NCBI GenBank assembly: GCA_016871375.1
Contig: VFYY01000007.1
Coordinates: 1 to 45,379, forward strand
Origin: Acidimicrobiia bacterium
GTDB taxonomy: Bacteria > Acidobacteriota > Vicinamibacteria > Vicinamibacterales > UBA2999
DNA length: 45,379 nt
Direction: 5' to 3'
Part shown: one piece after another, positions 1 to 34,072 of the stretch
Layout of the letters: each line of letters starts with the position of its first letter
Numbering within the stretch: position 1 is the first letter of the stretch
Program-made: the position numbers and the translations under genes
Notes under the pieces: model-generated
The model's input: only the letters and a program-made list of their open reading frames with translations
What the model was told of the DNA's origin: nothing
Databases searched by the model: none

Positions 1-156
1 GATCGCGACGGCCGGAGCCATTCGCGATCCAAACACCAGGACGCCTCGTTCAATCAAATGGACGCCGAAAACAGCGACAAAAATAGGTCAAAGGTCAAAG
101 GTCAAGGGTCAAAGGGACATGCCTACCTTTGACCTTTGACTTTTGACTTTTGACCT

Positions 157-3225: not shown

Positions 3226-5935
<2,710 letters not shown>

Positions 5936-15155: not shown

Positions 15156-15225
15156 ATTCCCAATATCGAAGTTCCAACTCCCAAAGAACGCGCCTTGGGA
15201 GTTGGGAATTGGAAGTTGGGAATTT
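15156..15225. repeat. Heptamer-phased palindromic element (10 x 7 nt; ACTCCCA/GGAGTTG type)
   Basis: ATTCCCA ATATCGA AGTTCCA ACTCCCA AAGAACG CGCCTTG GGAGTTG GGAATTG GAAGTTG GGAATTT. Confidence 0.85.
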
Positions 15226-17270
15226 TACTTCTTAAACTCGGCGACGTTGCTGGCGGCAGGCAGCTCCGGCAGCTCGCGCTTCTGGCGAAGCTTGCCGCGG
15301 GCCGGGCGGCGCGTCTGCGAGAGGTCGGTCGTCTGCGCGCAGAAGGGACAGAACTTCCAGCCGGGCTGCAGCGGGCGGCTGCAGTGCGGACAGCCGCCGC
15401 CGACGCGGGTGCCGCACGCCGGGCAGGCGACGAAATCCGGCGACACCGTCGCGCCGCACTCCGAGCACAGCGCACGCGTCTGGGCCACTTCGGTGACGAC
15501 GCGCAGCAGCTCCTCGGGCGTGGTGACGCCCGACTTCACCTTCAGGAGGCCGTCTTCACCGAGCGAGATCATGCCCGCCGCCTGCGCCTGGTCGCGCAGG
15601 TGCGCTTCGCTGCCGCGCTGCGCGATCGACCGGCGCAGCTTGTCGGTGACCGGCATGATCTCGTAGATGCCGACGCGCCCCTTGTAGCCGGTGTGGTTGC
15701 ACTGCTCGCAGCCGACGGCGCGGTAGAACGTCAGCGTCGCCGCCTCCACGTCCGACACGCTCATCGCGCGCAGGGTCTCCGGATCCGGCGTGTACGGCCG
15801 CTTGCAGCTGCTGCACAGCCGCCGCATGAGCCGCTGCGCGATCACGCCCACCAGCGCCGACGCGCTCACGTACGGCTCGATGCCGATGTCGGTCAACCGC
15901 GTCACGCACGACGGGGCATCGTCGGTGTGCAGCGTGGACAGCACGAGGTGACCGGTCTGCGCCGCCTGCATCGCGATGCGCGCCGTCTCCTGGTCGCGGA
16001 TCTCGCCGACGAGCACGACGTCGGGATCCTGCCGAAGAATCGAGCGCAGCGCGCTGGCGAACGTCAGGTTGATCTTCGAGTTGATCTGCGTCTGGTTGAC
16101 GCCGGGAATCTGGTACTCGACCGGGTCTTCGATGGTGATGATGTTCGTGCGCTCCGAGCGCACCGACGTCAGCGCCGAGCAGAGCGTCGTCGTCTTGCCC
16201 GAGCCGGTCGGGCCGACGACGAGAATCATGCCGTGCTGGTGGCGGAGGAAGTGGCGGATGCGCTCGAGCGCGGTGGCCGAGAAGCCGAGCTCCTCGAGCG
16301 GCGGCACGCCCTTGCGGTGATCGAGCACGCGCAGGACGATCTTCTCGCCGAAGATCGTCCGCAGCGTGGACGCGCGGAAGTCCACTTCGGCGCCGTCCTC
16401 GGCGGTGGCGCGGATGCGGCCGTCCTGCGGCAGCCGTTTCTCCGCGATGTCCATGCCGGCCATGATCTTCATGCGCGCCACCAGCCCCTCGTGCACCCAC
16501 TTCGGCAGGTCCATGACCTCCTTCAGCAGGCCGTCGAGCCGGTGGCGGACGACGACGTTGTTCTCGGTCGGCTCGATGTGGATGTCGCTCGCGCGGCTCT
16601 TGAGCGCGCTCTTGATCACCAGATCCACGAGATCGATGATCGGCGCGGTCTCGGGGCTGGCCGTCTTGTCGGCGGCGGCCTGCTCGAAGACGTCGTCTTC
16701 GGGCCGCGCCGCGAGCGTGCCGCCCGGCGACACCAGCGGGGCCAGCATGCCGCCCTGCGTCGTGTCCTCGCCCGCCTGGCCCGGCCGCGCTGCGCGCGCG
16801 CGCACCGAGAGGCCGCTGCCGCCGGGATTGACGCGCGCGAGCGCCTTGTCCGGATACGACGCGTGGATCGCGTCCGCGATCTCTCCGCGCGTGGCCACGA
16901 CCTGCTTGATGCGGTAGCCCGTCTGGAACTCGAGGTCCTGGACCAGCGTGAAGAGCAGCGGGTCCGACATCGCGACCGTGAGCAGGTTCTTCTCCACGGC
17001 AATCGCGAGGCACGTGCGTTTGAGCGCGACTTCCTTCGGGATTAAGATGACCGCGGCCGGATCGGGCGGGTTCTCGGCGAGGTTCACGTACGAAAACCCG
17101 AGCTGATACGCCAGCGCCTTGGCAATCTGCCGCTCGGTGGCGAGGTTCATCCGCACGAGGACAGCCCCCAGGCGTTCGCCCGAGCGTTTGTGCTCGACGA
17201 GAGCGGCTTGCAGATCTGTTTCGGTGATGAGTCCCGCCTGGACGAGACACTCGCCGATCTTCTTGCGCAA
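15225..17270 (-). CDS. Type IV pilus/type II secretion assembly ATPase (PilB/GspE) with MshEN-like N-terminus and C-terminal double zinc ribbon
   Basis: GPTGSGKTTTLCSAL, EDPVEYQIPGVNQTQIN, LRSILRQDPDVVLVGEIRDQETA, CSSCKRPYTP/CEQCNHTGYKGR; C-terminal CxxC pairs. Confidence 0.95.
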   Translation of the reverse strand: MRKKIGECLVQAGLITETDLQAALVEHKRSGERLGAVLVRMNLATERQIAKALAYQLGFSYVNLAENPPDPAAVILIPKEVALKRTCLAIAVEKNLLTVAMSDPLLFTLVQDLEFQTGYRIKQVVATRGEIADAIHASYPDKALARVNPGGSGLSVRARAARPGQAGEDTTQGGMLAPLVSPGGTLAARPEDDVFEQAAADKTASPETAPIIDLVDLVIKSALKSRASDIHIEPTENNVVVRHRLDGLLKEVMDLPKWVHEGLVARMKIMAGMDIAEKRLPQDGRIRATAEDGAEVDFRASTLRTIFGEKIVLRVLDHRKGVPPLEELGFSATALERIRHFLRHQHGMILVVGPTGSGKTTTLCSALTSVRSERTNIITIEDPVEYQIPGVNQTQINSKINLTFASALRSILRQDPDVVLVGEIRDQETARIAMQAAQTGHLVLSTLHTDDAPSCVTRLTDIGIEPYVSASALVGVIAQRLMRRLCSSCKRPYTPDPETLRAMSVSDVEAATLTFYRAVGCEQCNHTGYKGRVGIYEIMPVTDKLRRSIAQRGSEAHLRDQAQAAGMISLGEDGLLKVKSGVTTPEELLRVVTEVAQTRALCSECGATVSPDFVACPACGTRVGGGCPHCSRPLQPGWKFCPFCAQTTDLSQTRRPARGKLRQKRELPELPAASNVAEFKK

Positions 17271-18455: not shown

Positions 18456-18486
18456 AGCGGTTTCTGAAACGTCGTAACCGCGCTAA
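18452..18486 (-). repeat. Short copy of CTAGAGCGGTTTC inverted-repeat family
   Basis: ctagagcggtttctgaaacgtcgtaaccgcgctaa; relatives at 33957, 36262 and 45206. Confidence 0.8.
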
Positions 18487-18553
18487 CGTCCAACCTCCAA
18501 CGTCCAACGCCCAGGACGCCTTGGGAGTTGGTCGTTGGGAGTTGGGAATTGAT

Positions 18554-25153: not shown

Positions 25154-25156
25154 GGT

Positions 25157-25216
25157 AGCCGGCAGCCGGCTGCCGGCAGCCGGCTGAACTGCCCGCTGCC
25201 TGCTGCCCGCTGCATG

Positions 25217-25219
<3 letters not shown>
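25157..25219. repeat. Heptamer array (9 x 7 nt) of CCGGCAG/CCCGCTG type
   Basis: AGCCGGC AGCCGGC TGCCGGC AGCCGGC TGAACTG CCCGCTG CCTGCTG CCCGCTG CATGCTA. Confidence 0.75.
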
Positions 25220-30360: not shown

Positions 30361-30430
30361 CAACGCCCAACTTCCAACGCCCAACTCCCAAGCAGATCAA
30401 TTTGGGAGTTGGGAATTGGGAGTTGGAAGT
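30361..30430. repeat. Heptamer-phased palindromic element (10 x 7 nt, 4+2+4)
   Basis: CAACGCC CAACTTC CAACGCC CAACTCC CAAGCAG ATCAATT TGGGAGT TGGGAAT TGGGAGT TGGAAGT. Confidence 0.88.
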
Positions 30431-31152
30431 TCCCCTTCCTGGCCGCGGCGGGCAATCCACCAGATCACCAGCGCGAACGTCAGCAGCGCCGCCACGATCG
30501 TCGCCCCGAACAGCACGAGCGTCGTCAAGAGAATCGAGTCGCTCTCGACGTGCACCTGCAGGCCGAGGGGCGCCCCGGCCAGCCGGTCGCGCAGCGGCTG
30601 CTCCCACTCCAGAATGTTTCCGCGCAGGACGCCGGCCGGCGAGTTGTGGAACACGATCGCGCTGGGCAGGTGCATCTTGAAGAGCACCAGCTCGTCTCCC
30701 GTCCAGCCGACGTCGCCGACAGCCGGGTTCGTGCGTGACGGCGGACCCACCGTCTGCTCGTATTCGTACATGTCTCCCTGCCGCTCGAACCGGTAGCGCG
30801 ACCAGGCCAGCGGCGCGATCCGCGACGCCTGCCGCACGTCGTCCACGTCCACGCTGGCGTGCACGACGCGGCGGCCGTCCCGGCGCGACACGCTGACGCG
30901 CGCCCGCGACTCCGGCGTGGAGAACAGCGCGCGGACCCGCTCGCGATCGAGCCGCGCGCGTGGACTCACGTCGAGGTCCGCGCCGCGCAGCGCGACGAGC
31001 GCCGCCACCGACGCATTGACGTTGATCGTCGCGGAGCCGTCGAGCGCCAGGTAGATCTCTTCCTCGTATTCGTACTCGGGCCGGAAGACGCCGCTGCGCG
31101 AGCAGCCGGCCACCGTGACGCAGACGAGCAGCAGGACCCAGAGAAGACGCAC
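30397..31152 (-). CDS. Putative lipoprotein with C-terminal TM helix
   Basis: VRLLWVLLLVCVTVAGCSRSG lipobox, GTG start; C-terminal TM LVLFGATIVAALLTFALVIWWIARR; the last ~10 aa are encoded by the heptamer element. Confidence 0.7.
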   Translation of the reverse strand: MRLLWVLLLVCVTVAGCSRSGVFRPEYEYEEEIYLALDGSATINVNASVAALVALRGADLDVSPRARLDRERVRALFSTPESRARVSVSRRDGRRVVHASVDVDDVRQASRIAPLAWSRYRFERQGDMYEYEQTVGPPSRTNPAVGDVGWTGDELVLFKMHLPSAIVFHNSPAGVLRGNILEWEQPLRDRLAGAPLGLQVHVESDSILLTTLVLFGATIVAALLTFALVIWWIARRGQEGELPTPNSQLPN

Positions 31153-33956: not shown

Positions 33957-34072
33957 CTAGCGCGGTTTCGACTTCTTCGTAGTGTCCGGCTTTAGCCGGA
34001 CCACACACGGCGGTGCCGATCAACTTGGTCCGGCTAAAGCCGGACACTACGACGTTTCAGAAACCGCTCTAG
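33957..34072 (+). repeat. Full-length CTAG(C/A)GCGGTTTC element containing a REPIN-like 24-bp perfect inverted repeat
   Basis: Outer arms CTAGCGCGGTTTC.../...GAAACCGCTCTAG; inner arms GTAGTGTCCGGCTTTAGCCGGACC (33979-34002) and reverse complement (34027-34050). Confidence 0.88.

Follow-up and report, generated by a model that had tools for sequence, protein, structure and literature searches.

The palindrome at 85-156 of the window (the whole stretch of 45,379 nt analysed here, contig VFYY01000007.1 of assembly GCA_016871375.1) is real, and it is a variant within a known but unexplained kind of repeat, that of the single-heptamer systems of Xanthomonas, Nostoc, Geobacter and Beggiatoaceae. On balance, we favour a joint reading in which this copy would act as the terminator stem of the gene beside it and would also be a member of a population of heptamer arrays formed in place at gene borders. 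At least seven heptamer families in this one genome obey common rules, namely a period of 7, inverted pairing with their own kind, a fixed polarity and residence at gene borders. Heptamer repeats have so far been reported piecemeal, as one word in one genome, and have been left unexplained. As seven or more families follow the same rules, the thing to be explained is a process and not a word.

Anatomy of the palindrome

The inverted repeat spans 72 nt (85-156, minus strand) and consists of two 31-nt arms (85-115 and 126-156) that are 90% complementary, phased by 7 nt and separated by a loop of 10 nt (116-125). Both arms are period-7 arrays, and the 70 nt at 86-155 divide into heptamers exactly as the earlier note had read them. 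The hairpin of about 28 bp that was proposed there is confirmed as a hairpin, but the inverted repeat extends one base further at either end and its arms measure 31 nt. The palindrome also adjoins a stop codon as had been claimed, the TAG (157-159) of a minus-strand CarboxypepD_reg/TonB-dependent receptor-like gene (157-2031, 624 aa, assigned by Pfam match) lying 0 nt from it.

For the gene (minus) strand of 85-156, RNA folding was predicted at -38.7 kcal/mol, with z from -6.5 to -7.7, and for the plus strand at -50.8 kcal/mol (z -9.7); none of the shuffled versions reached the native fold stability on either strand. The stem is interrupted at three positions, where the gene (transcribed) strand has A.C mismatches and the opposite strand has G.U pairs. 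No Rfam family matched within the window at gathering score.

The T-tract and the orthologous loci

The order on the gene strand is stop codon, hairpin and ATTTTTG, so that a T-tract (TTTTT within ATTTTTGTCG, 79-83, minus strand) stands directly behind the stem, one base past it. The T-run is present on the gene strand side only, and none is found on the other side of the palindrome. This T-tract was absent from the earlier note, and its position on the gene side points to the likely function of the window copy. Orthologues of the receptor-like gene were recovered from all 40 genomes searched, and at the orthologous loci the T-tract and a similar downstream sequence are kept, with a stem that is unrelated or missing. 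At L081 (protein 66% identical) a G+C stem is followed by an identical CCTATTTTTGTCG, at L085, L092 and L097 unrelated G+C stems are followed by T6-T7, and at L083, L084 and L087 a T-rich stretch comes straight after the stop. The locus at L082 (protein 63% identical) reads GGTCAA...CCTTTGACCTTTTTTTGTCG, i.e. GGGGGTCAACGGCC...CCGGCCTTTGACCTTTTTTTGTCG, with far fewer units than the window locus, and judged from the sequence it seems to share a homologous outer unit and T-tract with the window locus.

As the T-tract is retained in relatives whose stems are unrelated or missing, the palindrome at 85-156 is most likely the stem of an intrinsic (Rho-independent) terminator of the receptor-like gene. 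The T-tract, along with the sequence behind it, is ancestral and the stem exchangeable, the stem of the window lineage being made of heptamer arrays. During evolution the stem has been swapped, with heptamer arrays taking its position in this lineage and the T-tract staying where it was. RNA polymerase leaving the gene would transcribe the stop codon, a heptamer hairpin of about 31 bp and then UUUUUG, and release of the transcript is predicted there, at the T-tract behind the palindrome. The window locus offers a directly testable case of putative terminator-stem exchange, with an array in the stem position and the T-tract retained.

The stem-loop and T-tract behind a stop codon are those of intrinsic terminators, whereas the window stem is long (31 bp), built of repeats and interrupted by A.C mismatches, and most palindromes of its class have no T-tract. 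The A.C mismatches at three positions of the transcribed strand count against a terminator, as selection on an RNA stem should tend to exclude them. A mechanical terminator scan did not list the palindrome at 85-156, the loop limit of the scan being 8 nt and the loop here 10 nt. Across the palindrome class in the 1.065-Mb sample described below, a T-tract of at least 5 T lies behind the palindrome at 1 of the 45 stop-side edges, which rules out that the class as a whole consists of terminators.

A convergent plus-strand gene at 1-86 was also ruled out, as the orthologous loci show a conserved region downstream of the minus-strand gene. About 150-250 nt past the orthologous stop, which is beyond the window start, L081-L107 carry a conserved TGGTATACCGTTTGCTCC-like motif that, recognised by eye, looks like a sigma-54 promoter (-24/-12) before the next gene.

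Census of period-7 arrays in the genome

We scanned 1.065 Mb of the same assembly without bias, which is about a quarter of the genome and includes the window. The genes in this sample were called with a hexamer model of our own (959 genes, 91% coding, G+C 0.687), and their starts may be off. Between genes we found 66 arrays of period 7, and 0, 0, 1, 6, 7, 1, 1 and 1 arrays of periods 4, 5, 6, 8, 9, 10, 11 and 12, respectively; period 7 is the only clear array excess between genes in the sample. We counted 43 hairpins with a 7- or 14-nt phasing against 4 in block-shuffled DNA, and the excess of 7-nt-phased palindromes on which the earlier note had staked its claim is thereby confirmed.

The sample contains 39 intergenic heptamer palindromes, which derive from several unrelated heptamers. 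The heptamer families of the genome are CCAACNN, GATTTGY, GGCAGNN, TAGGTNG, GGTTCNN, GGTCAAR and CAAATCC, beside which there is an 8-nt family, CACAGAGA, and single (unpaired) arrays of the palindrome-family heptamers are common. The arms of the 39 palindromes measure 16-42 nt and their loops 3-41 nt, a spread that rules out the fixed 4 + 2 + 4 architecture, both in its constant unit number and in its two-heptamer loop. A preferred unit count does exist, as the arms cluster near four units and 23 of the 39 palindromes have arms of 28-34 nt (about 4-5 units).

The window itself holds further members, none of them assigned to a strand. A CCAACNN palindrome at 15156-15223 fills the gap that separates the stop of the minus-strand gene at 15225-17270 from the next gene's start, two others lie within a convergent gap (18485-18551) and at a convergent gap (30361-30431), and a GGCAGNN/GCCGGCA palindrome (25156-25219) lies between two minus-strand genes. 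Other phasings were also seen. An 8-nt-phased palindrome of CACAGAGA / TCTCTGTG units is located at 4530-4584 of the window, with further copies across the genome, and 8-nt palindrome families occur in relatives too. Palindromes phased by 9 nt, of the GGCGGGTAG and CGTTCGGAA types, were found in L032 (16165-16247), L068 (8526-8615) and L063 (16391-16463 and 16827-16887).

Polarity, pairing and position at gene borders

Each family forms its dyads in one orientation only (24 of 24 inverted pairs), and CCAACNN palindromes in the whole genome gave 22 matches in one orientation, overlapping matches counted, and 0 in the opposite one. Of the inverted neighbour arrays within 60 nt of each other, 48 pairs were built of one heptamer and 2 of different heptamers, and a distance of 64-460 nt separates the members of a few other inverted pairs of one family. 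With the orientation defined from palindromes, the border polarity count of 86 to 4 is partly circular for these, and only the single arrays provide an independent test of polarity; near stops in four genomes, 17 of them were sense and 3 antisense. Arrays have their 5' end toward the gene, and the same heptamer on both borders gives a palindrome around a locus-specific loop.

Both neighbours were called for 38 of the 39 palindromes, which occupy 26 tandem, 9 convergent and 3 divergent gaps, the sample as a whole having 641, 138 and 140 such gaps, respectively. The palindrome edge is usually within about 10 nt of a stop codon, and in 18 of 32 cases its distance to a start codon does not exceed 7 nt. 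As the gaps are short, part of this closeness would be expected of any insertion that survives. Where a start codon follows an array directly, it often continues the register (e.g. ...CAAATCGCAA-ATG), and a Shine-Dalgarno-like motif is kept before 10 of 25 array-adjoining starts, compared with 34% for all genes and 18% for background. Non-palindromic GGTCAAR arrays were observed directly before start codons in L027 (a sucC-sucD-like gap) and L026 (an iscS-iscU-like gap), whose genes, named by eye, look like those of core metabolic operons.

In tandem gaps the stop and the start are both few nucleotides from the stem base, and together with the start codons that continue the array this would suit a translational bridge, in which coupling would be kept across the inserted spacer by a hairpin that draws stop and start close to each other. 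We consider such a bridge very improbable, as convergent gaps are used too and as G.U pairs (40) are about as frequent as A.C mismatches (38) on the sense strand of tandem gaps, where selection on the transcript should favour G.U. The G.U excess by which a selected RNA hairpin would show itself was not found in this count.

Distribution in relatives and other phyla

The host probably belongs to the Acidobacteriota, judging from its gene content. The sampled relatives, all taken from outside the genus of this genome (genus g2), have the same architecture in other words: AGGTCTC and GGCTTGA in G026, GGCAGTA and GTTGACA in G004, and TCAGTTN, CAGGGAT, TAGTCGT and GCCAGTG in G035. The orthologue of the gap at 15156-15223 has only about 0-20 nt in L115, L116, L121 and L123, is filled by a CAGGGAT palindrome in L124 and holds a direct GGTTCCG array in L111.

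CCAACNN palindromes were detected in 3 of the 297 genomes of the phylum sample. GGTCAAR arrays, of which this genome has 19, were present in 7 of 21 other genomes checked, with 1-4 in each. In a named collection, triple GGTCAAR arrays are spread over many phyla, where chance would give about 1 by our own estimate; most of them are single, and the five that are paired are all in cyanobacterial (Nostocales) records and share the same polarity. Of 12 cyanobacterial genomes, 8 carry GTCAANN palindromes, with a total of 331 matches, overlapping ones counted, and a search of these 12 genomes for the opposite orientation returned 34 matches, almost all of them another heptamer, GTTGACY.

Formation of the arrays

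For the class, slippage combined with inverted copying at gene borders fits best. Arrays would begin at the borders, grow by 7-nt slippage and be copied in inverted orientation to the border across the gap, and we infer that they formed in place rather than by transposition of whole palindromes. Copying from arm to arm is only suggested by the private variants common to both arms, which per 1000 positions number 48.8 without trimming and 20.0 with it, each compared with about 12, as detection bias at the arm ends explains much of the signal. Palindrome detection selects for complementarity and so brings a bias into every test of arm agreement, the permutation of units within palindromes included.

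REP and REPIN sequences are multi-copy intergenic palindromes with RAYT transposases, and the heptamer palindromes are likewise present in multiple copies between genes. If they were mobile palindromic repeats of this sort (REP/MITE-like), a transposase would insert whole palindromes, the insertions in gene gaps would survive and the terminator role would be incidental. This would agree with the high copy number per family, the restriction of families to lineages, the gaps that are empty in relatives, the loop common to many Nostocales copies and the four genes of the REP-transposase type (Y1_Tnp matches C78, C139, C205 and C59) in the genome. However, the heptamers are unrelated between families and so offer no recognition foot that all families share, the same heptamers often occur as single arrays, and the loops are locus-specific, those of same-family palindromes in this genome and in G004 having nothing in common beyond heptamer units. 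Copying of whole palindromes with shared loop and flanks was not found in either genome and was seen in one G035 subfamily only, which is a real repeat element. We hold a mobile origin of the heptamer palindromes to be doubtful.

By the features tested, the heptamer palindromes are not REP/REPIN, from which they differ in having a 7-nt phasing and neither a shared consensus foot (GTAG/CGTC) nor a shared loop. The Y1_Tnp genes may serve or spread the separate REP-like family of this genome. The repeat element of G035 is about 140 nt long and includes a TCAGTTN palindrome, its loop and downstream flank are identical between copies, and these copies are located in L223 (13712-13804 and 14550-14643), L224 (207-299) and L217 (1-70).

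Comparison with known heptamer systems

The short tandemly repeated heptanucleotides (STRRs) of heterocystous cyanobacteria are tandem heptanucleotides between genes, and the likeness to them drawn in the earlier note is apt, as tandem heptamers between genes are found here too. STRRs are not known as palindromes. The palindromic form cannot count as a novelty, as inverted pairs of heptamer arrays, mostly of 4 units, have been published for Xanthomonas (PMC4692102) and 7/8-mer arrays paired on opposite strands for Geobacter (PMC2700814).

The GGGAATC / GGGGAYT heptamers of Xanthomonas and Nostoc (Rehm et al. 2015) lie in sense orientation behind stops and antisense before starts with the 5' neighbour closer, and they are found between aligned genes and rarely between divergent ones; in Xanthomonas they mostly have about 4 units and include 70-75 inverted convergent pairs (PMC4692102). 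Tandem heptamers, inverted pairs, a usual size of about four units, a place mostly between aligned and seldom between divergent genes, and the sense strand behind stops (17 sense and 3 antisense single arrays) with antisense before starts are all seen here. In contrast to their single G-rich, quadruplex-forming heptamer per genome, the present genome has several unrelated heptamers, mostly without G-tracts; its arrays are more often paired than not, and other heptamers stand at the same gap in relatives. The consensus units GGTCAAA, CCAACNN and GATTTGY have no three-G tract on the 5'-arm strand.

The 'global regulator binding sites' of Geobacter metallireducens are 4-5 tandem 7/8-mers that form opposite-strand pairs at variable distance and fall into several classes (PMC2700814). 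The tandem 7/8-mers paired on opposite strands and the several classes in one genome recur here, whereas the words are others and theirs were described as putative regulator sites with insertion sequences at fixed distance (PMC2700814). The TAACTGA direct repeats of Beggiatoaceae, Cyanobacteria and Bacteroidetes lie between genes near start codons and are patchy across phyla (PMC4679880). Intergenic heptamer arrays near start codons with a patchy spread across phyla are common to both cases, but TAACTGA is one heptamer that is direct and almost never inverted (PMC4679880).

Another idea, put forward for Geobacter and Beggiatoaceae, is that the arrays are iterated sites for a DNA- or RNA-binding protein, which would recruit a regulator or nucleoid protein to gene borders. 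The units do have fixed and variable positions, such as CCAAC followed by 2 variable nucleotides (the fixed part being our choice), sites are paired on opposite strands at variable distance as in Geobacter (PMC2700814), and arrays lie directly upstream of start codons as for TAACTGA (PMC4679880). One conserved binder would not be expected to leave many unrelated heptamers in a single genome, nor heptamers that differ between relatives at one gap, and we judge a binding-site role distinctly unlikely. More widely still, the Xanthomonas, Geobacter, cyanobacterial and present palindromes could be outputs of one widespread, unnamed process that writes heptamer arrays on gene borders with the 5' end to the gene and the same heptamer inverted opposite, in words of each lineage's own, possibly via a dedicated polymerase or template; we offer this as a conjecture with rather low odds of being right.

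Other repeat families in the genome

The long hairpins of the 1.065 Mb other than heptamer palindromes belong mostly to one REP-like family. This is an inverted pair, TCGTAGTGTCCGGCTTTAGCCGGACCA ... TGGTCCGGCTAAAGCCGGACACTACGA, which is present at 33957-34072 of the window and at about 40 places in L029-L079, and which has a GTAG foot and, in its middle, 22 conserved nucleotides (CACACGGCGGTGCCGATCAACT). A second family of long palindromes, TGGGGTCGGGAGTCATTTTT ... AAAAATGACTCCCGACCCCA, is distributed over L035-L074, with examples in L038 (6147-6221), L046 (3716-3803) and L074 (3686-3767).
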